Assembly: GCA_018993155.1 (NCBI GenBank)
Contig: JAGKSX010000010.1
Span: 1-43,027 of the forward strand
Source: Hydrogenophaga sp.
Lineage (GTDB): Bacteria; Pseudomonadota; Gammaproteobacteria; Burkholderiales; Burkholderiaceae_C
DNA: 43,027 nt
Direction: 5' to 3'
Shown here: piece after piece, positions 10,872 through 40,586 of the stretch
How positions within the stretch are numbered: the first letter of the stretch is position 1
Layout of the letters: every line of letters begins with the position of its first letter
Notes under the pieces: model-generated
What the model saw: the letters and a program-made list of their open reading frames with translations, nothing else
The model's database searches: none
What the model was told of the DNA's origin: nothing
Program-made: the position numbers and the translations under genes

Positions 10872-12290
10872 TTGTTGGAAGAACCCGATGTCCTGGTGAT
10901 TGGGGGCGGCAATGCCGCCCTGTGCGCCGCCTTGATGGCGCGCGAAGCCGGCGCCCGCGTGCTGCTGCTCGAAGCCGCACCGCGCGAGTGGCGCGGAGGC
11001 AACTCCGGCCACACCCGCAACCTGCGCTGCATGCACGACGCGCCGCAGGACGTGCTGGTCGAGGCCTACCCCGAAGAAGAGTTCTGGCAGGACCTGCTCA
11101 AGGTCACCGGCGGCCAGACCAACGAACACCTCGCGCGCCTGACCATCCGTGCCTCGTCGAGCTGCCGCGACTGGATGCGCCGCCACGGCGTTCACTTCCA
11201 GCCGCCACTCTCGGGCGCGCTGCACGTCGCGCGCACCAACGCCTTCTTCATGGGCGGGGGCAAGGCGCTGGTCAACGCCTACTACCGCAGCGCTGAAAAG
11301 CTCGGCGTGCGCGTGCGCTACGAAACGCCGGTGGACCGCATCGAGGTCCAGGACGGCCGCTTCGTCGCCGCGCTCACGCGCAGCGGCGAGCGCATCACCG
11401 CCAGAAGCTGCGTGCTCGCCGCCGGGGGCTTCGAGTCCGACCGCGACTGGCTGCGCGAAGCCTGGGGCCAGAACGAGCGCGGCGAATGGCCGGCCGACAA
11501 CTTCCTCATCCGCGGCACGGCCTACAACAAAGGCGTGTTGCTCAAGCACCTGCTGGACGACCACGGCGCCGACCGCATCGGCGACCCCACGCAGGCCCAC
11601 ATGGTCGCCATCGACGCGCGCGCGCCGCTCTACGACGGCGGCATCTGCACCCGCATCGACTGCGTCTCGCTCGGCGTGGTGGTCAACCGCGAGGCGCGCC
11701 GCTTCTACGACGAAGGCGAAGACTTCTGGCCCAAGCGCTACGCCATCTGGGGCCGCCTCGTCGCCCAGCAACCGCAGCAGATCGGCTACTCCATCATCGA
11801 CAGCAAGGCCATCGGCCGCTTCATGCCGCCCGTGTTCCCGGGCGTGAAAGCCGACACCCTGCCCGACCTCGCGCGCCAGCTTGGCCTGGACGTGGACACC
11901 TTCATGCAGACCCTCGACAGCTACAACGCCGCCTGCCGCGTCGGCACCTTCGACCACACCGCGCTCGACGACTGCCACACCAAAGGCCTGACACCGGCCA
12001 AGACCCACTGGGCCCGCCCCATCGACACCGCCCCCTTCTATGGCTTCGCGCTGCGCCCCGGCATCACCTTCACCTACCTCGGCCTGCGCACCGATCACAC
12101 CGCCGCCGTGCGCTTCAACGACCGGCCCAGCCCCAACCTCTTCGTGGCCGGCGAGATGATGGCCGGCAACGTGCTCGGCAAGGGCTACACCGCCGGCGTG
12201 GGCATGTCCATCGGCACCGCCTTCGGCCGCATCGCCGGCACGAACGCGGCGCGGGCCGCCGTGAAAGGAGCGCAGCATGCAGGCGCTTGA
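10872..12290 (+). CDS. tcuA: FAD-dependent tricarballylate dehydrogenase TcuA
   Basis: A 472-residue flavoprotein of the fumarate reductase/succinate dehydrogenase family. The FAD-binding motif is at residues 7-35 ([17 protein letters not shown], then VLLLEA), with [27 protein letters not shown] and the C-terminal FAD segment [16 protein letters not shown]. TcuA oxidises tricarballylate to cis-aconitate, which enters the citric acid cycle. The start is TTG at 10872 (a second TTG follows), with GAGGAG six bases upstream; no in-frame ATG fits. tcuB starts 14 bases before the tcuA stop, as expected for the dehydrogenase and its membrane electron acceptor. Other tricarboxylate-like substrates are possible, but the gene pair is characteristic. 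Confidence 0.9.
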
Positions 12291-13449
12291 AGCCCTCGCG
12301 CGCGACGCGCGCGCGCTCGCCCAGGGCGAGGTCGTGCTCTCCGCACCCGAAACCGAGGTGGCGCGCCAGATGCAGATCTGCAACGCCTGCCGCTACTGCG
12401 AGGGCTTCTGCGCGGTCTTCCCGGCCATGACGCGCCGGCTCGAGTTCGGCAAGGCCGACATCCACTTCCTCGCCAACCTCTGCCACAACTGCGGCGCCTG
12501 CCTGCACGCCTGCCAGTACGCACCGCCGCACGAATTCGCCGTTAACGTGCCCCAGGCCATGGCCGAGGTGCGCGGGCAGACCTATGCCGACTACGCCTGG
12601 CCGCCCACGCTGGGCGGGCTCTACCAGCGCAACGGCCTCACGCTCAGCGTGGCACTCGCCGCCGGCCTCGCACTGTTCCTGCTGCTTGCCGTCGCGCTCA
12701 AGGGCAGCCTGTGGCCCAGCGACCTGGCCGGCAACTTCTACCACCTGTTCCCGCACAACCTGCTGGTCAGCCTGTTCGCGCCCGTGTTCCTGTTCGTGGT
12801 GTTCGCGCTCGGCATGGGCGTCACCCGCTTCTGGCGCGACGTCACCCCCGCCACCAGCGGCGGGCCCCTGAACTTGCCGGCCACCGGCGAAGCCGCGCAC
12901 GACGCGCTGCGGCTCAAGTACCTCGACGGTGGCCACGGCGACGGTTGCCCCAACGAGGACGACGCCTACACCCTCTCGCGCCGCCGTTACCACCACTTCA
13001 CCTTCTACGGCTTCATGCTGTGCTTCGCCGCCACCAGTGTGGCCACGGTCTACCACTATGTGTTCGGCTGGGTCGCACCCTACGAACTGCCCAGCCTGCC
13101 CAAGCTGCTCGGCGTGGTGGGCGGCGTGAGCCTGCTGATCGGCACCACGGGTCTGTGGCGACTCAACCGGCGCCGGCATCCGCTGCATGGCGACATCGCG
13201 CAGAAACCGATGGACCTCGGCTTCATCGCCCTGCTGTTCCTCACCAGCGCCACCGGCCTGGCGCTGTGGCTGTTGCGCGGCACGCCGGCGCTCGCCATCG
13301 CGCTGTGCCTGCACCTCGGTGCGGTGATGGCCCTGTTCGCCACGCTGCCCTACGGCAAGTTCGCGCACGGCGTGTTCCGCACCGCCTCGCTGCTGCGGTT
13401 CGCGGTGGAGAAGCGGCAGCCGAACCCCGTTGGCCTGAGCGCGGATTGA
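12277..13449 (+). CDS. tcuB: Tricarballylate utilization 4Fe-4S membrane protein TcuB
   Basis: A 390-residue protein that reoxidises the FADH2 of TcuA and passes electrons to the quinone pool. The N-terminus carries two ferredoxin-like clusters, Cys35-x2-Cys38-x2-Cys41-x3-Cys45 and Cys69-x2-Cys72-x2-Cys75-x3-Cys79, followed by about six membrane segments with conserved His residues ([19 protein letters not shown]) suited to haem or quinone binding. This is the CitB/TcuB layout. It overlaps tcuA by 14 bases, so translation is probably coupled. The Bug protein gene follows after 31 bases. The length agrees with the family (about 370-390). Confidence 0.92.
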
Positions 13450-25114: not shown

Positions 25115-25176
25115 CACTTCCGCCCAGCCAAAGATGGAGAAATTTCATGCCCCTACAAACCCCCGGAGACAAGCTC

Positions 25177-26043
25177 ATGATGAATCGCAGAAAGGTGCTG
25201 ATCGGCACCGCCGCCACCGTGGCCGGCACGCTGGCCTTCCCGGCCCGCTCGCAACAGGTGCTCACCGTCGGCCTGATCCCGTCGGAAGATTCCCGCGCCA
25301 TGATCGCCAACAGCCAGAAGATGATGGACATGCTGTCCGCCGCGCTGGGCATGCCGGTCAAGCCCTTCGTGGCGGCCGACTACAACGGCGTCATCGAGGC
25401 GCTGCGCTCCAAGCGCCTGGACGTGGCCTACCTCGGCCCGTTCTCCTACGTGCTCGGCGCCACCATCGCGCCCATCGAGGCCTTCGCCGTGGCCGAGACC
25501 AAGAAGGCCGGGCGCACCTTCTATCACAGCCAGGTCATCGCGCACAAAGACAGCGGCATCAAGACCGTGGCCGACCTCAAGGGCAAGACCTTCGCCTTCG
25601 TCGACCCCAGCTCCACCTCGGGCCACCTGTTCCCCAAGGCCGGTCTGATGAAGGCGGGCTTCGACACCGACAAGGACTTCGGCCGCGTGATCTTCTCGGG
25701 CTCGCACGACTCCAGCGCGATCGCGGTGCAGAACAAGAAGGTGGACGCCGCCGCCATCGCCGACCGCATCCTGGACGCCGCCATCGCCAAGGGCCTGGCC
25801 AAGCGCGAGGACCTGGTCGAGGTGTGGAAGTCCGACCCCATCCCCGAGTCGCCCACCGTGTGGCGCACCGACCTGCCGGCCGACCTCAAGAAGCGCGTGC
25901 AGGCCGCCTTCCTGCAGGTCAAGGACATCCCGTGGTCCGACCAGGGTCAGCTCAACGGCTTTCACCCCACCAACGACGCGGCCTACAACGTGATCCGCGA
26001 CACCGCCAAGCTGCTCAACCTCGATCTGAGGAAGATGAAATGA
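25177..26043 (+). CDS. phnD: Phosphonate ABC transporter, periplasmic substrate-binding protein
   Basis: A 288-residue PhnD-type binding protein. The N-terminus MMNRRKVLIGTAATVAG has a twin Arg and a hydrophobic core, so export may be by Tat or Sec. LTVGLIPSEDS opens the mature fold, and AAVDYNGVIEAL-like (AADYNGVIEAL), DVAYLGPFSYV and FVDPSSTSGHLFP are PhnD signatures that bind the phosphonate group. The start at 25177 has GGAGA seven bases upstream; an in-frame ATG at 25147 also has GGAGA and would add ten residues, so both are possible. Its stop overlaps the phnC start. It feeds PhnC and PhnE. Confidence 0.92.
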   Translation: MMNRRKVLIGTAATVAGTLAFPARSQQVLTVGLIPSEDSRAMIANSQKMMDMLSAALGMPVKPFVAADYNGVIEALRSKRLDVAYLGPFSYVLGATIAPIEAFAVAETKKAGRTFYHSQVIAHKDSGIKTVADLKGKTFAFVDPSSTSGHLFPKAGLMKAGFDTDKDFGRVIFSGSHDSSAIAVQNKKVDAAAIADRILDAAIAKGLAKREDLVEVWKSDPIPESPTVWRTDLPADLKKRVQAAFLQVKDIPWSDQGQLNGFHPTNDAAYNVIRDTAKLLNLDLRKMK

Positions 26044-26866
26044 TCGAGATCCGCAACCTCACCAAGCGCTATGGCGACTTCGTGGCCTTGCACGACGTCA
26101 GCCTGAGCGTGGCCAAGGGCGAGTTCGTCGTGATCCTGGGCGCCTCGGGCGCGGGCAAGTCCACGCTGCTGCGCTGCATCAACCACCTCGCCGAGCCCTC
26201 GGGCGGCGAGATCCGGGTGGACGGCGAACTCTCGCGCGGCGACCGCGCCGGCCTGCGCAAGGTGCGCCGCGACGTGGCCATGATCTTCCAGCACTACAAC
26301 GTGGTGCCGCGCCTCTCGGTGCTGAAGAACGTGCTCACCGGCCGCCTGGGCTCCATGCCCGCGCTGATGTCGTGGTTCCAGCTGTTTCCGCGCGAGGACA
26401 TCGACGCCGCGCGCGAATGCCTGCACCGCGTCGAGCTCGAACACAAGGCCGATGTGCGCACCGACACGCTCTCGGGCGGGCAGAAGCAGCGCGTGGGCAT
26501 CGCCCGCGCGCTGGCCCAGCACCCCAAGGTGATCCTGGCCGACGAGCCCGTGGCCAGCCTGGACCCGAAGACCTCGCGCAAGGTGCTGCGCTACCTGCAG
26601 CAGGCCAGCCGCGACTCCGGCATCACCGTCATCTGCAACCTGCACCAGGTGGACTACGCGCGCGAGTTCGGCCAGCGTGTGATCGGCGTGGCCGGTGGCC
26701 GCATCGTGTTCGAGGGCCGTCCCGACGAACTCACCGACGAGGTGCTGCAGCGCATCTACCCCGGTGGCCTTGAAGGCCCCACCCCGCCCGAAGCACCGGC
26801 GGCCTCGGTGGCCGTGCCGACCCCTGTCGCGGCGCACGCCGCTCCCCAACTGGCTCTGGAGCAACC

Positions 26867-26870
<4 letters not shown>
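26040..26870 (+). CDS. phnC: Phosphonate ABC transporter, ATP-binding protein
   Basis: A 276-residue ATPase that powers phosphonate import. The Walker A motif GASGAGKST is at residues 34-42, the Q-loop at MIFQHYNVV, the signature LSGGQKQR at 144-151, Walker B VILADEP at 164-170 and the switch His in CNLHQVDYA. This matches PhnC (about 260 residues), with an extra Ala/Pro-rich tail of about 30 residues after residue 245 that is not needed for the fold. The ATG overlaps the phnD stop (ATGA), and the stop overlaps the phnE start in the same way, so the three are translationally coupled. Confidence 0.94.
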
Positions 26871-28932
<2,062 letters not shown>

Positions 28933-28941
28933 AGGCCTTTC

Positions 28942-30042
28942 ATGACCTCGAACTACTTCAATCCCGTGCACAGCGTGTACGGGGCAGGGGCCCTGTTGTC
29001 GCTGCCGAAGCTGCTGGGAGGCCGCAAGGCCGCGCTGGTGACCTTCCCCGAGGCGCGCCAGCTCGGCCTGCTGGCCCGGCTGGAGGGCGTGCTCGGCGCC
29101 CAGCTGGCCTGCGTGATCGACCAGGTGCTGCCCAACCCCGATGTGGCCGAACTCGCCGCGACCCACGAGGCCTTCTGGCGCGCGCACGCCGACGTGGAGG
29201 TCATCGTGGCCGTGGGCGGTGGCAGCGCCATCGCCACCGCCAAGGCGCTCATGGTCGGCACCGCCAGCGGCCGCTTCCAGGAACTGGTGGACCTGCTGGC
29301 CACCGGCGCGGCTTTCACCCCGCACGCGGTCAAGACTCTGATCGCCGTGCCCACCACCGCCGGCACCGGCAGCGAAGTCACGCCCTGGGCCACCATCTGG
29401 GACCGTGAAAGCCAGAAGAAGTACTCGCTGCACCTGCCGCAGACCTGGCCCAGCGCGGCCATCATCGACCCCGAGCTCATGCTCTCGCTGCCGGCCTCGG
29501 TCACGCTGCAGAGCGGGCTCGATGCCTTGTCGCACGCGCTCGAATCGATCTGGAACGTCAACGCCAACCCGATCTCGGACGCCTTCGCGATCTCCGCCGT
29601 GGGCGACATCCTGGACGTGCTGCCGCGCCTGATGCGCGAGCTCGGCAACCTGGAGCTGCGTGGTCGCATGGCGCTGGCCGCGCTCAAGGCCGGCATGGCG
29701 TTCTCCAACACCAAGACGGCGCTGGCGCACTCCATCTCGTACGAGATGACGCTGCGCTACGGCCTGCCGCACGGCATCGCCTGCTCGTTTCCCTTGCCCA
29801 TGGTGCTGGCGCGCGCCATCGGCCGCCGCGCAGACCGCGACGCGGTGCTCGAACAGGCGCTGGGCGGGCCGCTGGCCAACGCACCCGTGCGCCTGGCCCG
29901 GTTCATCGAACAGTTCGGCGTCAAGACCCGTTTCAGCGACTACGGCGTGAGCGACGAGGAAGCCGAACAGATGGTGCGGCACGCCCAGGGCGGCGCGCGC
30001 GGCAAGAATTTCATTGGCAGCGCCGAGGAGACCCTGGCATGA
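28942..30042 (+). CDS. Phosphonate-associated iron-containing alcohol dehydrogenase
   Basis: A 366-residue group III (iron-dependent) alcohol dehydrogenase. The NAD-binding GGGSAIATAK is at residues 92-101 and the metal ligands are Asp194, His198, His263 and His277 in DALSHAL, LAHSIS and LPHGIAC. In phosphonate clusters this family is annotated as metabolism-associated; the related PhpC reduces phosphonoacetaldehyde to 2-hydroxyethylphosphonate. Here, before phnY, the reverse reaction (2-hydroxyethylphosphonate to phosphonoacetaldehyde) is the attractive role, but this is inference. Nine bases follow phnA, and the stop overlaps the phnY start (ATGA). Confidence 0.88.
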   Translation: MTSNYFNPVHSVYGAGALLSLPKLLGGRKAALVTFPEARQLGLLARLEGVLGAQLACVIDQVLPNPDVAELAATHEAFWRAHADVEVIVAVGGGSAIATAKALMVGTASGRFQELVDLLATGAAFTPHAVKTLIAVPTTAGTGSEVTPWATIWDRESQKKYSLHLPQTWPSAAIIDPELMLSLPASVTLQSGLDALSHALESIWNVNANPISDAFAISAVGDILDVLPRLMRELGNLELRGRMALAALKAGMAFSNTKTALAHSISYEMTLRYGLPHGIACSFPLPMVLARAIGRRADRDAVLEQALGGPLANAPVRLARFIEQFGVKTRFSDYGVSDEEAEQMVRHAQGGARGKNFIGSAEETLA

Positions 30043-31493
30043 ACGCACGCAGCCCCCTGCGCGACAGCGAACACTTCCGCGCCGAGGCGCTGCGCATCGG
30101 CGGCGACCGCATCACTCGCGAGCGCACGCTCGACGTGATCAACCCCTACAACCGCGAGCGCGTGGGCACCGTGCCCCTGGCCACGCTGGACGACGTGCGC
30201 CGCGCGTACCACATCGCCCGGTCCTACCAGGCCACGCTCACGCGCTACGAGCGCTCCAGCATCCTGCAGAAAGCCTCGGCCCTGCTGCGCGCGCGCGCCG
30301 AAGAGGCTTCCACGCTGATCACGCTCGAATCCGGCCTGTGCAGGAAGGACTCGATGTACGAGATCGGCCGCGTGGCCGACGTGCTGGTGTTCGGCGCCAA
30401 CGAGGCCTTGCGCGACGACGGTCAGGTGTTCTCCTGCGACCTCACGCCGCACGGCAAGAAGCGCAAGGTCATCACGATGCGCGAGCCGCTGCAAGGCGTG
30501 ATCACCGCCATCACGCCGTTCAACCACCCCATGAACCAGGTGGCGCACAAGGTGGTGCCCAGCATCGCGACCAACAACCGCATGGTGCTCAAGCCGTCCG
30601 AGAAGGTGCCGCTCTCGGCCTACTTCCTGGCCGACATCCTGTACGAGGCCGGCCTGCCGCCCGAGATGTTCCAGGTGGTCACTGGCGACCCGCGCGAGAT
30701 CGCCGACGAGATGCTGGTCAACGAGCACGTGGACCTGATCACCTTCACCGGCGGCGTGCCCATCGGCAAGTACATCGCGCAGAAAGCGGGCTACCGCCGC
30801 ATCGTGCTCGAACTCGGCGGCAACGACCCGCTGATCGTGATGGAGGACGCCGACCTCGACAAGGCCTCCGACCTCGCGGTGCAGGGCTCGTACAAGAACT
30901 CCGGCCAGCGTTGCACGGCGGTCAAGCGCATGCTGGTGCAAGCCTCGGTGGCGGCCGAGTTCACCGAACTTGTCGTCGAGAAGACGCGGCGCTGGAAACA
31001 CGGCGACCCCATGGACGGCGGCATGGACATGGGCACCGTGATCGACGCCGCCTCCGCCGAGCGTTTCCAGGGCCTGGTCAACGAAGCCGTGTCGCAGGGC
31101 GCGCGCCTGCTCACCGGCAACCAGCGCGAAGGTGCGCTCTACGCGCCCACGGTGCTGGACAACGTGCGGCCCGAGATGACCCTGGTGCGCGAAGAAACTT
31201 TCGGCCCGGTCTCGCCCATCATCGCGTTCCGCGACATCGACGAAGCCATTCGCATCTCCAACGGCACGGCCTACGGCCTGTCCTCGGGCATCTGCACCAA
31301 CCGCATGGACCACGCCACGCGCTTCGCCAAGGAGCTGGTGGTGGGCACGGTGAACGTGTGGGAGGTGCCGGGTTACCGCATCGAACTCACGCCCTTCGGC
31401 GGCATCAAGGACTCGGGCCTGGGCTACAAGGAAGGTGTGCAGGAGGCCATGAAGTCCTTCTGCAACGGCAAGACCTTCACCCTGCCGTGGTGA
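30039..31493 (+). CDS. phnY: Phosphonoacetaldehyde dehydrogenase
   Basis: A 484-residue aldehyde dehydrogenase that oxidises phosphonoacetaldehyde to phosphonoacetate with NAD. The catalytic Cys292 lies in NSGQRCTAVKR and the general base Glu258 in LELGGNDP; NAD contacts are TPFNHPMNQVAHKV and FTGGVPIGK. The phosphonate-cluster context and LVLKPSEKVPLSA-like region support PhnY over a generic enzyme. It supplies the substrate for PhnA four genes downstream in logic but upstream in place. It is the last gene of the operon; the convergent LysR gene ends eight bases away without a visible terminator. Confidence 0.92.
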   Translation: MNARSPLRDSEHFRAEALRIGGDRITRERTLDVINPYNRERVGTVPLATLDDVRRAYHIARSYQATLTRYERSSILQKASALLRARAEEASTLITLESGLCRKDSMYEIGRVADVLVFGANEALRDDGQVFSCDLTPHGKKRKVITMREPLQGVITAITPFNHPMNQVAHKVVPSIATNNRMVLKPSEKVPLSAYFLADILYEAGLPPEMFQVVTGDPREIADEMLVNEHVDLITFTGGVPIGKYIAQKAGYRRIVLELGGNDPLIVMEDADLDKASDLAVQGSYKNSGQRCTAVKRMLVQASVAAEFTELVVEKTRRWKHGDPMDGGMDMGTVIDAASAERFQGLVNEAVSQGARLLTGNQREGALYAPTVLDNVRPEMTLVREETFGPVSPIIAFRDIDEAIRISNGTAYGLSSGICTNRMDHATRFAKELVVGTVNVWEVPGYRIELTPFGGIKDSGLGYKEGVQEAMKSFCNGKTFTLPW

Positions 31494-31501
31494 ACAGCCC
31501 C

Positions 31502-32434
31502 TTAGAGTGCCGGTGAACCGCCCGGCTCGCTGAGCCGGTTCCCCCAGCCCTCCACCGTCTCGCGCAGCATGCGCGCGACGATCTTGCTCGCTGGCGTGAG
31601 CTGGCCCTGTTTCGGCAGGGCCAGCGTCACGTGGCGCCGCAGGTCGGGGTTGACCACGCGCGAGGCGCGCAGCCGGCCCGCGCGCAGCTCGGCGTCGATG
31701 GAGAACGGCCCGAGCAGCGAGTACAGCCCGCGCGTGTGGGCCACCAGTTCGCGTTGCACGCGCAGCGAATCGGCCTCCACCTCGGCCTGCAGCACGAAGC
31801 CCTTGCTGCGCGCCGTCTCGTCCAGCACCGCCCGCCAGTGCGCGGGCCGCCGAGGCAGCACCAGGCGCAGCCCGGCCAGGCGCGCGAATTCGAAGGTGTC
31901 GTTCTGCGTCAGCGGGTCGTCCGGGCGCGACACCAGGTAGGTGCCGGCCACGGCCAGCAGCTGCTCGTCCGCGCTGGTGGGCTTCTGGTAGCGGAACAGG
32001 ATGGCCATGTCCACGCTGCCCATGTCCAGCAGTGCGTCCAGCTCGCCGCCCTGGCCCTCGCGCACGTTGAGCTTGATCTTCGGAAACTCGGCCTGCAGGC
32101 GCAGGAACACGTGGGTGATCAGCGGGTGCGCCGCCGAGGGCAGGATGCCCAGCCGCACCTCGCCCATGGGTTCGCCGGCATCGACGCGGATGTCGGCCAG
32201 CAGCTGGTCCGTGTCGCGCACCCAGCCGCGCACGCGCGCCTCCACGTGGCGGCCCAGGTCGGTCAGCGTCACGCCGCGCCCGGTGCGCCGGAACAGCGCG
32301 CCGCCGCACTGTTTCTCCAGTTCGCCGATCTGCCGGCTGATGTGCGACTGCACCGTCTGCCGCAGTGCCGCCGCCTTGGTGAAGCTGCCGAGCTCGGCCA
32401 CTTCAAGGAACAGGCGGAAGTCGTTCGGGTTCAT
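31502..32434 (-). CDS. LysR family regulator of the FAH-HyuAB operon
   Basis: A 310-residue LysR-type protein. The HTH at residues 3-62 reads DFRLFLEVAELGSFTKAAAL, then TVQSHISRQIGELE; the subgroup is similar to Nac/Cbl-like regulators of carboxylate use. The start at 32434 has GGAG upstream; a longer frame to 32491 lies in the promoter. It is divergent from the FAH-family gene, so it most likely governs the six-gene operon beginning at 32554. An imperfect dyad CATGC/GCATG at 32454-32471 is next to its start. The effector is unknown. Confidence 0.88.
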   Translation of the reverse strand: MNPNDFRLFLEVAELGSFTKAAALRQTVQSHISRQIGELEKQCGGALFRRTGRGVTLTDLGRHVEARVRGWVRDTDQLLADIRVDAGEPMGEVRLGILPSAAHPLITHVFLRLQAEFPKIKLNVREGQGGELDALLDMGSVDMAILFRYQKPTSADEQLLAVAGTYLVSRPDDPLTQNDTFEFARLAGLRLVLPRRPAHWRAVLDETARSKGFVLQAEVEADSLRVQRELVAHTRGLYSLLGPFSIDAELRAGRLRASRVVNPDLRRHVTLALPKQGQLTPASKIVARMLRETVEGWGNRLSEPGGSPAL

Positions 32435-32453
32435 CGGGAGTCTCCGGTTGAGG

Positions 32454-32471
32454 CATGCTTTTTTGGGCATG
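32454..32471. promoter_or_regulatory. Candidate LysR site between the regulator and the FAH gene
   Basis: CATGC (32454-32458) and GCATG (32467-32471) are inverted around eight bases rich in T. It lies 19 bases before the lysR ATG and about 85 before the FAH ATG, as expected for a divergent LysR promoter. The arms are short. Confidence 0.35.
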
Positions 32472-32553
32472 TCTGAAATCTCGGTTTGCATTCTAGGCAG
32501 ATGGCGGGTGCTTTTCTAGACTGCGTTCCCATCACCCCACGGAGACACCCGCC

Positions 32554-33399
32554 ATGCGTTTTGCCAGCTTCGAGGTCGACGGCCGAGCCACCTACGGGGT
32601 GGTCGGCGCCGATGGCCGCCACACCCCTGTTCCCGCCGCGTTCCAGGCCCGCCACGCCGACCTGAAGGCCGCCATTGCCGCCAACGCACTCGGTGAACTC
32701 AGCAGCCTGGGCGGCCCCTCGCTCGCGCCCGACCAGCTGCGCCTGCTGCCGGTGATCCCCAACCCCGGCAAGCTGATCTGCATCGGCCTGAACTACAAGA
32801 GCCATGTGGCCGAGACCAAGCGCGCCGACAGCGAGTACCCCTCGATCTTCCTGCGCTTCAACGACACCCTGGCCGCGCACGGCGACGAAGTGCTGCGCCC
32901 CGTGTTTTCCGACCGCTTCGACTGGGAAGGCGAACTCGCCTTCGTCATCGGCCAGGGCGGCCGCGACATCCCGAAAGACAAGGCCTTCGACCACATCGCC
33001 GGCTACGCCTGCTTCAACGACGTGAGCGTGCGCGACTGGCAGAAGCACACCCACCAGTTCACCCCCGGCAAGAACTTCCCCGGCACCGGCCCCTTCGGCC
33101 CCTACATGGCCACGCGAGACGAAGTGCCTGACGTGACGAAGCTGCTGCTGGAAACGCGCCTGAACGGCACCGTGGTGCAGCACGCCAGCGTGGGCGACCT
33201 GATCTTCGACATCCCCACCATCGTCAACTACGTCTCGCGCTTCACGCCGCTCTCGCCCGGCGACGTGATCGCCACCGGCACGCCCGGCGGCGTTGGCGAC
33301 CGCCGCGAGCCGCCGCTGTACATGAAAGAAGGCGACGTGGTCGAGGTCGAGATCACGGGCCTCGGAGTTCTCCGCAACCCCATCGGCGTCACGGCCTGA
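32554..33399 (+). CDS. Fumarylacetoacetate hydrolase (FAH) family protein
   Basis: A 281-residue FAH-fold enzyme. The family includes fumarylacetoacetase, acylpyruvases, oxaloacetate decarboxylases and 2-keto-diacid hydratases. Metal ligands Glu125 and Glu127 in DWEGELAFVIG and Asp156 in FNDVSVRD are present, along with CIGLNYKSHVAE and GDVIATGTPGGVG. The ATG has GGAGA nine bases upstream. As first gene of the HyuAB operon it probably acts on a ring-opened or acyl-pyruvate-like intermediate, or supplies the carboxylate that HyuAB works on. The exact reaction cannot be read from the sequence. Confidence 0.88.
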   Translation: MRFASFEVDGRATYGVVGADGRHTPVPAAFQARHADLKAAIAANALGELSSLGGPSLAPDQLRLLPVIPNPGKLICIGLNYKSHVAETKRADSEYPSIFLRFNDTLAAHGDEVLRPVFSDRFDWEGELAFVIGQGGRDIPKDKAFDHIAGYACFNDVSVRDWQKHTHQFTPGKNFPGTGPFGPYMATRDEVPDVTKLLLETRLNGTVVQHASVGDLIFDIPTIVNYVSRFTPLSPGDVIATGTPGGVGDRREPPLYMKEGDVVEVEITGLGVLRNPIGVTA

Positions 33400-33415
33400 T
33401 CCGCGACACAACACC

Positions 33416-35512
33416 ATGAGCAACACCCACCTCACCCCGCACGACGCGCGCCTGCGCGTCGCCGTCGACATCGGCGGCACCTTCACCGACATGGCCGCCT
33501 TCGACGAAGTCACCGGCCAGCTGCTGTTCGGCAAGGCCCTGTCCACCCACGGTCAGCTGGTCAACGGCATCCAGGCCACGCTGGACAGCGCCGACATCGA
33601 CCTGCGCGACGGCCACCTGTTCCTGCACGGCTCCACCATCGCCATCAACACGCTGCTGGAGCGCAACGGCGCCAAGACCGCGCTGCTGATCACCGAAGGC
33701 TTTCGCGACATCTACGAGATCGGCCGCGTGAACCGGCCCGACGCCTACAACCTGTTCTTCAACAAGCACGAGCCGCTGGTCAAGCGCTCGCTGCGCTACG
33801 AGGTGGCCGAGCGCCTGCGCGCCGACGGCAGCACGCACAAGGCGCTGGACGAAGACGCGGTGCGCGAGCTGGCGCGCGAACTCGGCGGCAAGGACATCGA
33901 GGCCGTGGCCGTGCTGCTGCTGCACTCGTACCGCAACCCGGCGCACGAACAGCGCGTGAAACAGATCCTGCAAGAGGAACTGCCGGGCGCCTTCGTCTGC
34001 GCCTCGCACGAACTCAGCCAGGAATACCGCGAGTTCGAGCGCGTCTCCACCGCGGTGGCCAACGCCTACGTGGGCCCGCGCGTCTCGGCCTACCTCGGCC
34101 AGCTGGAAGACCACCTGAGCAACAAAGGCTTCAAGGGCGACTTCTACGTGGTGCAGTCCACCGGCGGCCTGTTCCCCAGCGAACATGCCCGGCGCGATTG
34201 CGTGCGCATGCTCGAGTCCGGCCCGGCGGCCGGCGTGATCGGCGCGCAGGCCATCTGCGCGCAGCTCGGCATGGGCGACGCCATCGCCTTCGACATGGGT
34301 GGCACCACCGCCAAGGCCGGCGTGATCAGCGAAGGCCGGCCGCTGACCACTGGCAGCGCCCTCATCGGCGGCTACGAGCGCGCCCTGCCGATCCAGATCC
34401 CGATGATGGACATCCACGAGGTCGGCACCGGCGGCGGCTCCATCGCCCGCGTGGAAACCGGCAACGCGCTGCGCGTGGGCCCGCAGAGCGCGGGCTCCAT
34501 CCCCGGCCCCGTGGCCTACGGCCGTGGCGGCACCGAACCCACCGTGACCGACGCCAACCTCGTGCTCGGCCGCCTCGACGCCGACCACTTCCTGGGCGGC
34601 GAACTCAAGCTCGACCTCGCCGGCACGCAGCGCCAGATGGAAGAGCGCGTGGCCAAGCCCCTGGGCCTGGACGCCACCGCCGCCGCCGACGGCATCCTGC
34701 GCATCGCCGTCACCCAGATGTCGCACGCCGTGAAGGCCGTCACCACCGAGCGCGGCCTGGACGCCGGCAGCTTCACCATGGTGGTCTACGGCGGCGCCGG
34801 CCCGCTGCACGCCTCGGCCATCGCGCGCGAGATCGGCATCCGCAAGGTGCTCATTCCCTACGCGCCGGGTTATTTCTCGGCCTACGGCATGCTGTTCTCC
34901 GACCTGCGCTACGACTACGTGCGCTCGGTGTTCCGCAAGCTCAACGACGTGTCCTTCGACGAAATCGAAGCGCTCTACAAGGGCATGGAAGACGAAGGCC
35001 GCGCCGCGCTCGCCGCCTCGGGCATCACGCCCGACGGCATCGTCATCGAACGCGCCGCCGACATGCGCTACGTGGGCCAGGAGCACGCTGTCACGGTGGA
35101 CCTGCCCGGTGCGTTCTTCGTGGACAAGGACCGCTCGGCCATCAAGAACCACTTCGACCAGGTGCACAAGGTGCGCTACGGCACCTCGGCGCCCCAGGAA
35201 GCGGCCGACCTCGTGAGCCTGCGCGTGACCGTGCTCGGCACCATGAAGAAGCCGCCGCGCCACCACGTGGACGAAGGTGCGGCACAGCCCGAAGCGGCCG
35301 CCCTGCGCGGTACCAAGCCGGTGTACTTCCGCGCCGGCGGCTGGGCCGACACGCCGGTCTACAAGCGCGACGCGCTGCGCGCCGGCAACGTCATCGCCGG
35401 CCCGGCCCTGATCGAAGAACACGCCTCCACCACCGTGGTCCAGCCCGGCGACGAACTGCGCGTCGACGGCCTGGGCAACCTGCAAATCGCCATCGGGAGC
35501 GACCGCTCATGA
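33416..35512 (+). CDS. hyuA: Hydantoinase/oxoprolinase family protein, subunit A (HyuA)
   Basis: A 698-residue ATP-dependent subunit of the N-methylhydantoinase/5-oxoprolinase/acetone carboxylase family. ATP-binding segments are VDIGGTFTDMAAF near residue 17 and FDMGGTTAKAG in the middle, with HGSTIAINTLLERNGAKTALL and EVGTGGGSIARV. HyuA phosphorylates an amide, lactam or ketone enol(ate) so that HyuB can hydrolyse or carboxylate it. The length matches the family (about 690). It follows the FAH gene by 16 bases, and its stop overlaps the hyuB start by three bases (ATGA). The substrate is unknown; neither a hydantoin carbamoylase nor a racemase is near. Confidence 0.9.
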   Translation: MSNTHLTPHDARLRVAVDIGGTFTDMAAFDEVTGQLLFGKALSTHGQLVNGIQATLDSADIDLRDGHLFLHGSTIAINTLLERNGAKTALLITEGFRDIYEIGRVNRPDAYNLFFNKHEPLVKRSLRYEVAERLRADGSTHKALDEDAVRELARELGGKDIEAVAVLLLHSYRNPAHEQRVKQILQEELPGAFVCASHELSQEYREFERVSTAVANAYVGPRVSAYLGQLEDHLSNKGFKGDFYVVQSTGGLFPSEHARRDCVRMLESGPAAGVIGAQAICAQLGMGDAIAFDMGGTTAKAGVISEGRPLTTGSALIGGYERALPIQIPMMDIHEVGTGGGSIARVETGNALRVGPQSAGSIPGPVAYGRGGTEPTVTDANLVLGRLDADHFLGGELKLDLAGTQRQMEERVAKPLGLDATAAADGILRIAVTQMSHAVKAVTTERGLDAGSFTMVVYGGAGPLHASAIAREIGIRKVLIPYAPGYFSAYGMLFSDLRYDYVRSVFRKLNDVSFDEIEALYKGMEDEGRAALAASGITPDGIVIERAADMRYVGQEHAVTVDLPGAFFVDKDRSAIKNHFDQVHKVRYGTSAPQEAADLVSLRVTVLGTMKKPPRHHVDEGAAQPEAAALRGTKPVYFRAGGWADTPVYKRDALRAGNVIAGPALIEEHASTTVVQPGDELRVDGLGNLQIAIGSDRS

Positions 35513-37251
35513 ACACACGAGACAACCTGCCCAGCACGACGGTTGACCCCGTCACCGTCGAGATCATCCGCAACGGCCTCTTCGCCGTGACGGAGGAGAT
35601 GAAGACCAACCTCACGCGCACCGCGTACAACCTCATCATCTATGAGGCGCTGGACTTCACGGTGGGCCTGTTCACCAAGGAAGGCGACACGGTCTCCATC
35701 GGCCTGGGCCTGCCCATGTTCATCCGTGGCATGGCCGAGACGGTGAAGGCGAAGATCAAACACTTCGGCTACGAGAACATCAAGCCGGGCGACATCCTCG
35801 TCACCAACGACGCCTACACCACCGGCAGCCACCTGAACCACTTCACCTTCACCATGCCGGTGTTCCACGAAGGGCAGCTCGAAGGCTTCACCTGCTGCAT
35901 GGCGCACTGGCTCGACGTGGGCGGCACCCTGGGCAACGTGACCACCGACATCTTCAGCGAAGGCATCCAGATCCCGATCGTGAAGTACCAGCGCGAAGGC
36001 GTGGTCAACCAGGACCTGGTCGACATCATCGCGATGAACGTGCGCATGCCCGAGCGCGCGCTGGGCGACCTGCGCGCGCAGATCACCGCCATCACCACCG
36101 GCGAGCGCCGCTATGTGGAGCTGCTGCAGCGCTACGGCGCCGACGCGGTCAACGGCTCGATCCGCCAGATCATGGATTCGAGCGAAGCCGTGGCGCGCAA
36201 GAACACGCTGTCCATCCCCGACGGCGTGTACGAAGCCGAGTCCTACATGGACGACGACGGCCTGGAGATCGGCAAGCGCATCCCCATCCGCGTCAAGGTC
36301 ACCGTGAAAGGTGACGAGATGACGGTGGACCTGTCCGACGTGAGCAAGCAGGTGCGCGGCTTCTACAACTCCGGCTTCACCACCGGCATCGCCTGCGCGC
36401 AAGTGGCCTACAAGTGCCTCACCACGCCCACCGACTACCCGGTGAACGACGGCAGCTTCCGCTCGCTGAAAGTGATCATGCCCATGGGCACCGTCATCAG
36501 CGCCGAGCGCCCGTACCCGATGCGCGTGTGGATGACCTTCCCGATGACGGTAATCGACACCATCTTCAAGGCCCTTGCGCCCGCGATTCCCGACCGCGCC
36601 ATCGCCGGCCACCACGCTGACCTGGTGTTTCCCAACATCCACGGCATCTCGCCGGAGGACGGCCGCTTGTTCATCGTCGGCATCGGCCCGCTGGGCGGCG
36701 GCTGGGGCGCCAAGAGCACGGAAGACGGCGTGTCCGTTACCGTCTGCATCAACGACGGCGACACCCACAACAGCCCGACCGAACAGCTCGAAGCCAAGTA
36801 CCCGGTGCTGGTCGAGAAATACGAGATCCGCAAGGACAGCGCGGGTGCCGGCAAGTACCGTGGCGGCCTGGGCGCGGAGATGGTGGTGCAGGCGCTCTCG
36901 CCCTTCACCGTCACCACCCGCATCGACCGCGTGCACTGCAAGCCCTGGGGCCTGGAAGGCGGCGGCGACGCCATGGGCAACGGCTTGGCCGTGCGCCACA
37001 AGGGCGTGTGGAAGGAGGACCACCTCAACGCCAAGATCTTCAACGTGCGCCTCGAACGCGGCGATGCCTACAAGATGCTCTCGGGCGGCGGCGGTGGCTT
37101 CGGCAGCCCGCTGGAGCGCGAGGCCGAGAAGGTGGCCGAGGACGTGCGCGAAGGCTATGTGAGCGCCGAGGTGGCGCGCGAGGTCTACCGCGTGGCGCTC
37201 GATGCGCAACAGCAGGTGGACGAGGCCGCCACGGCCCGCCTGCGGGCCTGA
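35509..37251 (+). CDS. hyuB: Hydantoinase/oxoprolinase family protein, subunit B (HyuB)
   Basis: A 580-residue partner of HyuA. Conserved stretches include YEALDFTVGLF, GDILVTNDAY, AHWLDVGG, GIQIPIVKYQREG and the glycine-rich SGGGGGFGSPLEREAE end. The metal site of the family seems changed: where many HyuB have PvHxG, GGxHLPD and HHxD, this protein shows LPMFIRG (68-74), GSHLNH (106-111) and HWLD (133-136). His108, His133 and Asp136 remain, and His111 is extra. It may belong to a subgroup with a different metal or reaction. The CobW-type GTPase two genes downstream would fit a metal requirement. Coupled to hyuA by an ATGA overlap. Confidence 0.9.
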   Translation: MNTRDNLPSTTVDPVTVEIIRNGLFAVTEEMKTNLTRTAYNLIIYEALDFTVGLFTKEGDTVSIGLGLPMFIRGMAETVKAKIKHFGYENIKPGDILVTNDAYTTGSHLNHFTFTMPVFHEGQLEGFTCCMAHWLDVGGTLGNVTTDIFSEGIQIPIVKYQREGVVNQDLVDIIAMNVRMPERALGDLRAQITAITTGERRYVELLQRYGADAVNGSIRQIMDSSEAVARKNTLSIPDGVYEAESYMDDDGLEIGKRIPIRVKVTVKGDEMTVDLSDVSKQVRGFYNSGFTTGIACAQVAYKCLTTPTDYPVNDGSFRSLKVIMPMGTVISAERPYPMRVWMTFPMTVIDTIFKALAPAIPDRAIAGHHADLVFPNIHGISPEDGRLFIVGIGPLGGGWGAKSTEDGVSVTVCINDGDTHNSPTEQLEAKYPVLVEKYEIRKDSAGAGKYRGGLGAEMVVQALSPFTVTTRIDRVHCKPWGLEGGGDAMGNGLAVRHKGVWKEDHLNAKIFNVRLERGDAYKMLSGGGGGFGSPLEREAEKVAEDVREGYVSAEVAREVYRVALDAQQQVDEAATARLRA

Positions 37252-37252
37252 C

Positions 37253-37636
37253 ATGGACGCCGCCACCGTGGCAGCCGCCGACCCCCGCGCCGCCCGCCTG
37301 CTGGGTCTGTGGAGCCGCCTGAGCGCCCAGCACGTCACGCTGGGCTCGGGTTGCGGCTGCGGCGTGGGCGGGGTCAGCGTCTCGCTGCAGGACTTCGAGC
37401 TCGACATCGCCGACTACCTCTGGGCCGAGAGCGAGCGCCTGGGCGTGTCCAGCGTGGAAGCTTTCCTGCTGCAGCCCGGGCCGATCGCCGAACAGCCCCA
37501 GCCGGTGATGAACCTGCTCACGCGCCTGGAAGCGGGTGAGGCCGACGAGGCCGATGCCGACTGGCTGCTCACGCGGCTGGCGCGCACGCTCGAATCCTTC
37601 GCCAAGCTGCACGGCCCCATGGGCACCGCGACATGA
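37253..37636 (+). CDS. Unrecognised 127-residue protein with a Gly-rich Cys pair
   Basis: I do not recognise this family. The protein is 127 residues, without signal peptide or membrane helix. Its mark is GSGCGCGVGG at residues 31-40, with Cys34 and Cys36 the only cysteines, preceded by His27. An acidic middle (DFELDIADYLWAESE) and two amphipathic C-terminal helices follow. The start at 37253 is one base after the hyuB stop; a longer frame from 37202 overlaps hyuB out of frame. The stop overlaps the GTPase ATG (ATGA). The place between HyuB and a CobW-like GTPase suggests a role in metal delivery or maturation of HyuAB; this is inference only. Confidence 0.8.
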   Translation: MDAATVAAADPRAARLLGLWSRLSAQHVTLGSGCGCGVGGVSVSLQDFELDIADYLWAESERLGVSSVEAFLLQPGPIAEQPQPVMNLLTRLEAGEADEADADWLLTRLARTLESFAKLHGPMGTAT

Positions 37637-38649
37637 AAGCCGTGCCCGTCACCGTGCTCACCGGCTTCCTGGGCAGCGGCAAGACCACGCTGCTCAACCG
37701 CCTGCTGCGCGCGCCCGGCATGCACGGCACGGCCGTGGTCATCAACGAATTCGGCGCCGTCGGGCTGGACCACGACCTCGTTGACCACACCGAAGAGAAC
37801 ATGGTGCTGCTGGCCAACGGCTGCATCTGCTGCACCATCCGGGGCGACCTGGTGGAGGCCTTCGAGCGCCTGGCCGCCACGCCCGCCGCCCAGCGAGGCG
37901 AACTGCGCCACGTGGTGCTGGAAACCACCGGCCTGGCCGACCCCGCGCCCATCCTGCACACCCTCATGGGCGACCCGCGCCTGCACGGCACCTGGCGGCT
38001 CGCCGGCGTGGCCTGCACCGTGGACGCGTGCCACGGCATGGCCACGCTCGACCAGCACCCCGAAGCCGTGAAACAGGCCGCCGTGGCCGACCGCCTGCTG
38101 CTCACCAAGACCGACCTGCAGCCCGTGCCCGAGGCGCTCATGCAGCGCCTGCGCGACATCAACCCGCTGGCCGAGATCCGCACCGATGCCGGGGGCGCGC
38201 TGTCGGCCCTGCAAGCGCTGCTGGTGCGGCCGGCGCCCGCCTTCACCGCGCTGCCCGACGCGGGCCGCTCCGACTTCTTCCCCGCCTCCGCACCCGATGC
38301 GAGCCGCCACGACGACCGCATCCGATCGCACGTCATCGTGCGCGAGCAACCGCTCTCGCGCGAGGGCTTCTTCGCCTGGCTGGACATGATCGCGAAGATG
38401 CGCGGCGACGACCTGCTGCGCGTCAAGGGCATCGTGCACCTGGACGACGACCCGGAGCACCCGCTCGTCATCCACGGCGTGCAGCACCTGTTCCACCCGC
38501 CCGAGACGCTGCCCCGCTGGCCCAGCGACGACCGGCGCACGCGCATCGTGTTCATCACGCGCGGCATCGATGCCGAAGACATCGACGCCACGCTGAGCGT
38601 TTTTGAACGGCGCCGCACGCGCCGAGCCCCTGCCCCTCAACCCGATTGA
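37633..38649 (+). CDS. CobW/COG0523 family GTPase, putative metallochaperone
   Basis: A 338-residue G3E GTPase. GFLGSGKTT at 11-19 is Walker A, CICC at 64-67 is the metal-binding CxCC motif, ETTG at 97-100 follows, and TKTD at 158-161 is the guanine specificity motif (usually NKxD). The C-terminal CobW domain covers about 230-330, with a short Arg/Pro tail. The family inserts metals such as Zn, Co or Fe into client enzymes, as for nitrile hydratase and cobalamin enzymes. The nearest client here is HyuAB. It overlaps the previous small gene by four bases. Confidence 0.9.
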   Translation: MKAVPVTVLTGFLGSGKTTLLNRLLRAPGMHGTAVVINEFGAVGLDHDLVDHTEENMVLLANGCICCTIRGDLVEAFERLAATPAAQRGELRHVVLETTGLADPAPILHTLMGDPRLHGTWRLAGVACTVDACHGMATLDQHPEAVKQAAVADRLLLTKTDLQPVPEALMQRLRDINPLAEIRTDAGGALSALQALLVRPAPAFTALPDAGRSDFFPASAPDASRHDDRIRSHVIVREQPLSREGFFAWLDMIAKMRGDDLLRVKGIVHLDDDPEHPLVIHGVQHLFHPPETLPRWPSDDRRTRIVFITRGIDAEDIDATLSVFERRRTRRAPAPQPD

Positions 38650-38671
38650 CACAACCCCCAAGGAGACAAGC

Positions 38672-39646
38672 ATGAAGTTGAAGATGAAGCACTGGATGAC
38701 CGGCCTGGCCCTCGCCGCCGTGGGCGTGGCGCCCGCCCTGGCCCAGGGCAAGTTCCCCGACAACATGATCAAGCTCATCGTGCCCTTTGCAGCCGGCGGC
38801 GGCGTGGACGGCGCGGCGCGCCTGCTTGCCAAACAGCTGCAGACCGACCTGGGCGTGACCGTGGTGGTGGACAACCGCGCCGGCGGCAGCGGCACCATCG
38901 GCGGCAAGGCGGTGCAGACCGCGCACCCCGACGGCTACACCCTGCTGTTCTCGGCCGCCACGCACGTGCTCGCCAGCCACGTGCTGGCCACGCCGCCCTA
39001 CGACCCGGTGACCGACTTCGTGCCCGTGGCCCGCACCGGCGAAGCGCCGCTGCTCATCGTGATCCCGCCCACCGCGCCGCAGAAGAACCTGCGCGAAGTG
39101 ATCGACGCGGCGGGCAAAGGCGGCAACAACTGGAACGCCGCCATCCCAGCGCTCGGCGCGCCCAGCCACCTCGCCACGCTGCTGCTGGCCAAGCAGGGCA
39201 AGGTCAGCTTCACCATGACGCCCTACCGGGGCACCGCGCCCGCCGCCACCGACGTGGCCGGTGGCCACGTGCAGGTGCTGGTCGATTCCATCATCTCGCT
39301 GCAACCCATGGCCAAAGGCGGCCGCGTGAAGCCCATCGCCCAGACCGGCGCCAAACGCAGCAGCGTCGCGCCCGACGTGCCCACGGCGGCCGAGAGCGGC
39401 TACCCGGGCCTGGTGTACGTGTCGTGGTACGGCGTGTGGGCACCCAAGGGCACGCCGGACGACCGCGTGCAGTTCCTCAACAAGGCCATCAACAAGGCCA
39501 CGGAAGAACTGGCCAAGGCCGGCTCGCTCGCCTCGCTGGGCGTGGAGCCGGTGGTGGAGTCGGTGGACACCTTCCGCAAGTACATCGCGACCGATGTGGC
39601 GCAGAGCGCGGGATTGTTGAAAGAGGCAGGATTCAAGCCGGAGTGA
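38672..39646 (+). CDS. Bug/TctC family tripartite tricarboxylate substrate-binding protein
   Basis: A 324-residue periplasmic protein with a signal peptide (residues 1-24, ending PALAQ). Bug landmarks: IKLIVPFAAGGGVDGAARL, VVVDNRAGGSGTIGG, PDGYTLLFS, APSHLATLLLAKQGK and VPTAAESGYPGL. GGAG seven bases before the ATG supports this start. It is the sixth gene of the FAH-HyuAB operon, 22 bases after the GTPase, and probably captures the substrate of that pathway. No TctAB genes are nearby, so a shared transporter elsewhere or a signalling role must be assumed. It is clearly related to, but distinct from, the Bug protein of the tcu module. Confidence 0.9.
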   Translation: MKLKMKHWMTGLALAAVGVAPALAQGKFPDNMIKLIVPFAAGGGVDGAARLLAKQLQTDLGVTVVVDNRAGGSGTIGGKAVQTAHPDGYTLLFSAATHVLASHVLATPPYDPVTDFVPVARTGEAPLLIVIPPTAPQKNLREVIDAAGKGGNNWNAAIPALGAPSHLATLLLAKQGKVSFTMTPYRGTAPAATDVAGGHVQVLVDSIISLQPMAKGGRVKPIAQTGAKRSSVAPDVPTAAESGYPGLVYVSWYGVWAPKGTPDDRVQFLNKAINKATEELAKAGSLASLGVEPVVESVDTFRKYIATDVAQSAGLLKEAGFKPE

Positions 39647-39674: not shown

Positions 39675-40586
39675 TCAGAACACCGACAGCCCGGTGCGCG
39701 CGGCGAACAGTTCCAGCGCCTGCATGCCCAGCAGCGAGTTGCCCGTGGCACCCAGCGCGGGCGACCACACGCACAGGCTCAGGCGATCGGGCACCACCGC
39801 CACGATGCCCCCGCCCACGCCGCTCTTGCACGGCAGGCCGATCCGGAACGCGAACTCACCTGCCGCGTCGTAGGTGCCGCAGGTCAGCATCAGCGCGTTG
39901 ATGCGGCGCGTCTGGCGCTCGCTCAGCAGGGACTCGCCGCTGAACGGGTGCCGGCCGTCGCGGCACAGGAAGCCGGTGGCGCGCGCCAGTTGCAGGCAGC
40001 TCATGCGCACCGCGCAATGGTGGAAATAGGCGTCCAGCACGGCCGCGACGTCGTTGTCGATCTTGCCGAAGCTCTTCATGAAGTTGCCCAGCGCGATGTT
40101 GCGAAAACCGGTCGCGGCCTCGGACGCCGCCACCTCCTCGTCGAAGTGCACGGGCTCGTTGCACAGGCTGGACACCAGCTCCAGCATGGCCGCCTTGGGA
40201 TCGCCCTGGCTGACCAGCCGGTCCGTGACGGCGATCGCGCCGGCGTTGATGAAGGGGTTGCGCGGCGTGCCCTGTTCGGCCTCCAGCTGCACCAGCGAGT
40301 TGAAGGGGTTGCCCGAGGGTTCCCGCCCGATGCGTTCCCACAGGCGCTCGCCCATGGCGCGCATGCCCAGGGTCAGGGCGAAGAGTTTGGAAATGCTCTG
40401 GATCGAGAAGGGGGTGGTGCTGTCGCCGGCCTGCGCCTCCTCGCCGTCGCAGGTGCGCAAGGCGATGCCGAACTGCGCCGCCGGCACGCGCGCCAGCGCG
40501 GGAATGTAATCGGCCACCCGGCCCTGCGCCCCCAGGGCCGGGCGCAGGGTGGCGACGATGTCCTCGAGGATGGGCTGGAATGGCAT
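39675..40586 (-). CDS. glsA: Glutaminase
   Basis: A 303-residue enzyme of the serine-dependent beta-lactamase-like glutaminase family that converts glutamine to glutamate and ammonia. The catalytic Ser64-x-x-Lys67 pair is in QSISKLFAL, followed by REPSGNPFNSLVQLE, NPFINAGAIAVTD and SGVGGGIVAVVP, all typical for GlsA. The length agrees with the family (about 305). It lies 15 bases downstream of the UvrA-like gene on the same strand and may be cotranscribed, though its ribosome binding site is poor. It converges with the Bug gene, 28 bases away. Confidence 0.93.
   Translation of the reverse strand: MPFQPILEDIVATLRPALGAQGRVADYIPALARVPAAQFGIALRTCDGEEAQAGDSTTPFSIQSISKLFALTLGMRAMGERLWERIGREPSGNPFNSLVQLEAEQGTPRNPFINAGAIAVTDRLVSQGDPKAAMLELVSSLCNEPVHFDEEVAASEAATGFRNIALGNFMKSFGKIDNDVAAVLDAYFHHCAVRMSCLQLARATGFLCRDGRHPFSGESLLSERQTRRINALMLTCGTYDAAGEFAFRIGLPCKSGVGGGIVAVVPDRLSLCVWSPALGATGNSLLGMQALELFAARTGLSVF

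Follow-up and report, generated by a model that had tools for sequence, protein, structure and literature searches.

A 43,027-nucleotide stretch of Hydrogenophaga sp. DNA (contig JAGKSX010000010.1 of GenBank assembly GCA_018993155.1, here called the window) carries an operon of six plus-strand genes in a row, encoding an FAH-superfamily protein (FAH), HyuA, HyuB, a 127-residue protein, a COG0523 GTPase, and a Bug periplasmic binding protein, with a LysR-type regulator gene on the opposite strand. SML is the working name used here for the 127-residue protein encoded after HyuB. The operon is real and recurrent, and it encodes a variant of a known enzyme family in which one metal ligand has changed and a partner protein is dedicated to the enzyme. 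An earlier note, made from the letters of the window alone, had described the same one-strand arrangement, with ATGA overlaps, gaps of at most 22 bases, and LysR opposite; the coordinates and Pfam matches confirmed it. The features are as follows.

31502..32434, minus strand: LysR-type regulator, divergent from the operon (Pfam LysR_substrate 2.5e-30, HTH_1 5.5e-19)
32453..32476, no strand: candidate LysR-type operator, imperfect palindrome (alignment of 10 LysR-FAH spacers)
32554..33399, plus strand: FAH-superfamily protein (Pfam FAA_hydrolase 4.3e-66)
33416..35512, plus strand: HyuA, ATP-binding subunit (Pfam Hydantoinase_A 6e-95 plus N- and C-terminal domains)
35509..37251, plus strand: HyuB, metal-site subunit (Pfam Hydantoinase_B 2.2e-157)
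37253..37636, plus strand: SML, unnamed family, HyuB partner (conserved co-occurrence; no Pfam match)
37633..38649, plus strand: COG0523 GTPase (Pfam cobW 1e-44, CobW_C 7e-26)
38672..39646, plus strand: Bug/TctC periplasmic binding protein (Pfam TctC 4.5e-54)

The operon and its recurrence

The genes are tightly packed, with spacers of 16 bases between FAH and HyuA, 1 between HyuB and SML, and 22 between the GTPase and Bug, and with ATGA overlaps at HyuA/HyuB and SML/GTPase. The GC content at third codon positions (GC3) is 0.91-0.93 for all six operon genes and LysR. The window genome is a 4.9-Mb draft that holds three further HyuB paralogues besides the HyuB of the operon. The domains of the family are complete: Hydant_A_N, Hydantoinase_A, and Hydant_A_C lie in one subunit and Hydantoinase_B in the other, and HyuA has intact DxGGT (18), DMGGT (293), and GxxPGP (360) motifs, as defined in a description of the family (PMC8453981). 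FAH has the NYxxHxxE, ExE, RDxQ, and GK motifs of the acylpyruvase active site, with the HxxE, ExE, D, Q, and K residues kept when compared with the catalytic residues given for FAHD1 (PMC7056447). It shares its domain and catalytic motifs with acylpyruvases, 5-oxopent-3-ene-1,2,5-tricarboxylate decarboxylase, and 2,4-didehydro-3-deoxy-L-rhamnonate hydrolase and differs from them in that it falls below every NCBIfam equivalog cut-off, as do HyuA, HyuB, and the GTPase.

The order LysR / FAH-HyuA-HyuB-SML-(GTPase)-Bug is repeated across other genomes, so the arrangement in the window is not due to chance. The closest named loci belong to Hydrogenophaga aromaticivorans (L023), in which the operon is complete, and Malikia granosa (L024). 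We compared 34 loci, 28 of them with SML, which together with the window gives 29 SML loci; L009 and L024 have identical SML and are probably one species. HyuB lies directly before SML in all 29, while the GTPase is beside SML in 17 and was not found in 12, the deepest ones included (in L132, only about 1.2 kb past SML was readable). FAH is present in 18 of the 23 SML loci with a readable upstream side and absent in L025, L131, L132, L133, and L136; this side was unreadable in L009, L016, L017, L107, L134, and L148. In the Microvirga locus, FAH lies 3' of SML, that is, downstream. The earlier note had proposed checking the co-occurrence of these genes across genomes, and on these counts the SML-HyuB link held throughout, the GTPase in 17 of 29 loci only.

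A sample of 250 genomes of the same family gave the same result. SML occurred in 18 of them and this HyuB (counted at E<=1e-200) in 19, with both counts treated as one 250-genome sample, in agreement with the listed genomes. All 18 SML genomes have the HyuB, directly 5' of SML; in the 19th HyuB genome (G131), HyuB stops at a contig edge. SML was found in none of the 231 genomes that lack this HyuB, and the coincidence has a hypergeometric probability of 1.6e-26, ignoring relatedness. On this point the earlier note is supported, as the small protein goes with this HyuB subgroup (18/18 against 0/231). The GTPase followed SML in 13 of the 18 genomes and was missing in 5.

In two phylum-wide samples (398 and 388 genomes), the SML unit was found in the same three genomes only, all of the window's family. 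The genome searches were confined to one phylum, and the distant SML loci were obtained by profile searches that started from relatives of the window. The SML profile used in comparing the loci and in the survey of HyuB metal ligands includes the Microvirga SML, whose homology rests on a profile match, and operons in draft genomes may be split by contig ends. The SML-HyuB adjacency is kept across families, also on a plasmid of an alphaproteobacterium, and where HyuB identity is as low as 60%; FAH, the GTPase, and LysR are variable. The operon is recurrent, and its core is HyuA-HyuB-SML.

The upstream side is also partly conserved, as most relatives with a readable upstream side have a LysR orthologue at the equivalent site. 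The probable start of LysR in the window is at 32434, with a second open ATG at 32491, and the Pfam query started a few codons upstream of the former. The palindrome at 32453..32476 reads ATGC-N8-GCAT in the window and ATGCC-N6-GGCAT in the consensus of 10 spacers; its conservation suggests that it is probably a LysR-type operator.

The HyuB metal site and the SML protein

The metal ligands of CapB, the corresponding subunit of caprolactamase, are described as Asp41, His99, Asp102, and His124, and those of acetone carboxylase as His150, Asp153, His175, and Glu89 (PMC8453981, PMC10865871). His99, Asp102, and His124 are presented as fully conserved in the family, and binding-site mutants of caprolactamase as inactive (PMC8453981). 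Alignment placed the equivalent positions in the window as follows.

35653..35655, plus strand: HyuB Asp49, equivalent to the CapB Asp41 ligand
35830..35832, plus strand: HyuB His108, equivalent to the CapB His99 ligand
35839..35841, plus strand: HyuB His111 in place of CapB Asp102, the changed ligand
35905..35907, plus strand: HyuB His133, equivalent to the CapB His124 ligand

The published Asp/Glu-His-Asp-His tetrad is not kept in the window HyuB, which has Asp-His-His-His, and its Pfam homology is still firm. All five matched sequences of solved structures have Asp at the changed position (two of them are near-identical acetone carboxylase chains). For a wider view, HyuB loci were fetched with a HyuB profile regardless of SML (17 of 290 genomes of the order, 28 matches at E<=1e-120) and others were added. 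His occupies the position in 32 of the 32 rows of one lineage, Asn in seven rows of a neighbouring lineage (L171-L174, L177, L178, L180), and Asp in 14 rows of more distant HyuB, among them those of the three paralogues in the window genome. As judged from these alignments, the ligand position varies between Asp, Asn, and His in the family. In a HyuB tree of 42 rows, the 32 His-type rows group together (support 98/98), and an inner group of 28 rows (96/87) holds all SML loci that were given; it also includes L181, which lacks SML, and L164 and L185, where the contig stops. Rooted at its midpoint, the tree suggests that the change to His preceded the arrival of SML. Lys300 of HyuA was considered as a second lineage-specific residue and was discarded, as the Apc subunit 5l9w_b also has Lys there.

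Characterized enzymes resemble the window pair in part. Caprolactamase CapAB of Pseudomonas jessenii (PDB 6YRA) is homologous over nearly the full length of HyuA and HyuB and shares the ATP motifs and three of the four metal ligands, but it is a two-subunit enzyme without SML, and its Asp102 is His in the window; the window proteins score 536.0 and 291.4 bits against the caprolactamase families NF050156/NF050157, for which the cut-off is 1000. In the PDB, both subunits match an ATP-dependent N-methylhydantoinase (7HK5 and others) best, at 435.5 and 318.9 bits; this enzyme differs in having both parts in one 1288-residue chain and in keeping Asp at the metal site. Acetophenone carboxylase (Apc) and acetone carboxylase (Acx; 5L9W, 5M45, 5SVB) belong to the same HyuA/HyuB family and have a small third protein with metal-binding residues, but this gamma subunit is a PF08882 protein with four Cys, unlike SML, and their HyuB keeps Asp. 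Gene clusters of the Hyd branch (hydantoinase/oxoprolinase) are described as two genes without a gamma subunit (PMC5214803). The SML gene directly follows HyuB in every SML locus; a subunit role of SML is putative.

SML itself had no Pfam or NCBIfam family at E<=0.001 and no PDB sequence match, and a Foldseek search with its model found no PDB match at E<=0.001 (best 0.71). It is a genuine family tied to this HyuB. In an alignment of 20 SML sequences (A2), in which the 19 others are 30-78% identical to the window SML, nine residues are invariant, including the following four.

37331..37333, plus strand: SML His27, invariant in 20/20 sequences of A2
37352..37360, plus strand: SML Cys34-x-Cys36, invariant in 20/20 sequences of A2
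37610..37612, plus strand: SML His120, invariant in 20/20 sequences of A2; lost in the Microvirga relative (outside A2)

These two Cys and two His are the only ones in the window SML. The earlier note had spoken of a small Cys protein; the 127-residue gene is real, but it encodes only two cysteines, in a CxC. The AlphaFold2 model (mean pLDDT 85.5, pTM 0.77) consists of helices, among them a long C-terminal one, and a short hairpin, with low confidence for residues 31-40, including the CxC. A divergent relative, on a Microvirga plasmid, has 139 residues and lies 3' of a HyuB with 79% identity; it matched SML at E 6e-8 with a 17-sequence profile (A1) and 2e-9 with A2, in a small search set.

Two variants were seen among the SML loci. 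In L133 (7631-8980), a locus of burkholderial origin, the SML frame stays open into a YncE-like beta-propeller, and the junction includes a hydrophobic stretch; this may be a fusion or an overlapping start. The SML proteins of the GTPase-less operons L140-L143 and L135 share a C-terminal tail like GGSxAWRxxYR, which is not in the other aligned SML. A 115-residue gene before HyuA in Streptomyces was tried as an SML and gave no match to the SML profile, and a local "LxDxELDI" likeness between SML and the gamma subunit (E 0.11, probability 0.6%) was noted as a sub-threshold lead that we did not believe.

The COG0523 GTPase and its relatives

The window GTPase has GxxGSGKT at residue 11, CxCC at residue 64, and a CobW_C domain, which places it in COG0523. 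It shares this G3E architecture with YjiA, CobW, ZigA, and the nitrile hydratase activator, and its PDB matches were YjiA sequences only; YjiA and YeiR are described as preferring Zn (PMC7895991). It differs from these systems in scoring below all NCBIfam equivalog cut-offs and in that it would serve a client of the HyuAB family.

The operon GTPases fall into a single clade, with 12 rows (95/84) in a first tree, which took in the 45 sufficiently long rows of the 56 supplied and was supplied with 12 of the 17 operon GTPases, and with 14 rows (99/99) in a second, in which all 38 rows were entered, one of them (L107) partial. Both trees carried long-branch warnings, and their midpoint root is for drawing only. 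In these trees the clade was seen only in these operons. Its sister in the first tree, from Rhizobium and Shinella (90/81), became an open fork in the second after nine GTPases were added. Those nine came from seven SML genomes, five of which lack an operon copy (G514, G420, G344, G425, G130), and none of the nine fell in the operon clade. All 15 genomes tested hold some COG0523 protein, and in the nine of them without an operon copy the best one is 40-49% identical, by percentage as near as the least similar operon copies. A substitute for the missing operon GTPase is possible on this comparison; a relocated copy was not seen among the GTPases placed.

The earlier note had inferred that the GTPase and the 127-residue protein mature HyuAB; in the corresponding model, the two act as a maturation pair that delivers metal to HyuAB and then departs, with SML as a metal carrier and not a subunit. 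The ATGA overlap of the two genes would suit such a pair, and the fast evolution of SML suits a transient factor better than a subunit. There is also a parallel on Rhizobium and Shinella plasmids, where a related GTPase overlaps a 110-residue CxxC protein (MCSLCG.., no Pfam match) in an operon of a polysaccharide-deacetylase-family protein, the small protein, the GTPase, a binding protein, and an amidase (L186 3717-8649, L188 3580-8649); a similar block of deacetylase, small protein, and GTPase occurs in a genome of the window's own genus (L197 3957-6152). This 110-residue protein was compared with SML and rejected as a homologue. As a fixed pair, the proposal is not supported: the GTPase is not beside SML in the 12 loci noted above, and the GTPases of the five checked genomes lie outside the operon clade. 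Among the best 80 of 570 genome loci and 20 of 64 plasmid records, a GTPase of >45% identity occurs only beside SML, so the dependence, if any, runs from the GTPase to SML. We consider the maturation pair unlikely.

COG0523 GTPases also occur with other HyuAB operons. Six of the same best 80 of 570 GTPase loci have HyuAB in the locus (L023, L024, L025, L041, L043, L055) and 74 do not, with locus lengths that differ. Three of the six form a separate group (96/90, second tree) with marine alphaproteobacterial GTPases, whose loci (L026-L033) all have homologues of the Fur and Znu genes of L026 (8/8, L026 matching itself). In L041, L043, and L055, HyuA-HyuB lies upstream of the GTPase. L041 (452-9014) has, in this order, a PF08882 gamma gene, a HyuA-HyuB pair whose closest match is acetophenone carboxylase, genes for a 274-residue protein and an AMP-binding ligase, and the GTPase gene; L055 (10-9005) encodes a HyuA-like protein, PF08882, HyuA, HyuB, a 318-residue protein, the GTPase, and an AMP-binding protein; and the contig of L043 (111-8901) starts at HyuA, so the region for PF08882 lies outside it. 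This suggests that COG0523 GTPases paired independently with acetophenone-carboxylase-like HyuAB operons, and the separate pairing is the best support for the metal idea of the earlier note.

Interpretation

The reading we favour, with a probability of about 0.47, is that HyuA, HyuB, and SML form an ATP-dependent enzyme of three parts whose metal site is shifted; in it, SML is a gamma-like metal-binding subunit or assembly factor and the GTPase is an optional metal helper. In the family, HyuA is described as phosphorylating a carbonyl or amide, after which the intermediate moves to the HyuB metal (PMC5214803, PMC8453981, PMC10865871). Here, HyuA would phosphorylate the carbonyl or amide of the substrate, and the activated intermediate would react at a HyuB metal held by Asp-His-His-His instead of Asp-His-Asp-His, where His111 may alter the choice of metal or the chemistry. 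SML would bind zinc or a similar ion through His27, Cys34, Cys36, and His120, as their invariance suggests, and would act on HyuB in the manner of the Zn-binding gamma subunit of acetone and acetophenone carboxylases. The COG0523 GTPase would secure metal, most likely zinc, for HyuB, SML, or both in scarcity. Bug may deliver or sense the substrate, and FAH probably acts on a keto-acid product, by cleavage or decarboxylation, in most, not all, versions; together they would frame a keto-acid or cyclic-amide pathway. The Microvirga locus also encodes a DHDPS-family protein, TctC, TctB, and a permease, which, with the acylpyruvase motifs of FAH, fit a carboxylated substrate without fixing its identity.

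Several observations weigh against this reading. SML is 45-77% identical between operons whose HyuB is 86-94% identical (own genome aside), which is unusual for an integral subunit. The Microvirga SML keeps the CxC, lacks His120, and has its other His shifted. SML is not a PF08882 protein, as it had no Pfam match and an hhalign probability of 0.6% against the gamma subunit. Pfam Penicillinase_R matched 2 of 17 SML members below threshold (best E 0.031), as did PDB 2g9w (E 0.042), which we take to be a BlaI-type repressor; the two may point to one fold, unexplained by a metal role, and we did not believe these sub-threshold leads to a relationship. Five His-type HyuB loci lack SML within reach (L181-L184 and L152 of Streptomyces), so the Asp-to-His change is not tied to SML, and a strict bond between the two was ruled out. 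As the fork next to the operon GTPases is open, the tree lends no support to a zinc role, and given the other COG0523 proteins in GTPase-less genomes, absence of the operon copy is no proof of dispensability. Two acetone carboxylases are reported to be correctly metalated without chaperones in E. coli, and the account of these enzymes in PMC10865871 knows no chaperones for acetone carboxylase.

In another view, SML is a metal-independent partner, either a regulatory or stabilizing subunit or a substrate-channel cap, with the GTPase a co-transcribed metal-limitation gene and His111 tuning substrate choice only. The model of SML, mostly helical with a short hairpin and a low-confidence CxC loop, would fit it, as would the Penicillinase_R and 2g9w matches and a GTPase that comes and goes among loci. 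This view is improbable in the face of exactly two Cys and two His invariant over deep divergence and of COG0523 GTPases beside other HyuAB with a Zn-binding subunit. That the operon is an ordinary catabolic one, united by shared substrate regulation with no physical or metal link, is very improbable, since SML-HyuB adjacency persists over the range given above, even though LysR, Bug, and FAH are usual catabolic companions and the gene set varies in relatives.

The reading of the earlier note is partly supported: its metal link is retained in the invariant His/Cys set of SML, the changed HyuB ligand, and the COG0523 genes of acetophenone-carboxylase-like operons, and is weakened in that the Asp-to-His change is wider than SML. 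An evolutionary scenario can be added, which we regard as doubtful: the Asp-to-His lineage would have changed its catalytic metal and chemistry, SML would be a new HCCH metal protein that arose as its third subunit, independently of the carboxylase gamma, and the COG0523 GTPase would have been recruited as a dedicated metallochaperone, with a separate recruitment in the acetophenone-carboxylase-like operons.

Elsewhere in the window, a glutaminase gene (39675-40586) is convergent with the operon end, and a phosphonate block adjoins on the other side (25147-31493: PhnD, PhnE, a PsrA-type iron alcohol dehydrogenase, and phosphonoacetaldehyde dehydrogenase, all above their NCBIfam cut-offs). A TcuB-type tricarballylate utilization protein (12277-13449) is also above its NCBIfam cut-off.

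In the open-licence literature, to which the search was limited with subscription papers outside its scope, no paper was found, judged by titles and listings, linking COG0523/CobW GTPases with a hydantoinase-type operon, and nothing on an oxoprolinase-metallochaperone link or a Hydrogenophaga hydantoinase operon. As to metal choice in the family, two acetone carboxylases with the same first shell are described as picking Mn or Fe (PMC10865871). In this operon, a naturally changed first-shell ligand, a small candidate metal binder, and a GTPase share one transcription unit, and relatives lacking one part or another make the metal content with and without each part directly testable. The 127-residue family gains a partner, HyuB, and a testable role. 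The clients of many COG0523 GTPases are described as unknown (PMC9164220); if the evolutionary scenario above is true, HyuAB-type enzymes would be a new class of clients for these GTPases.

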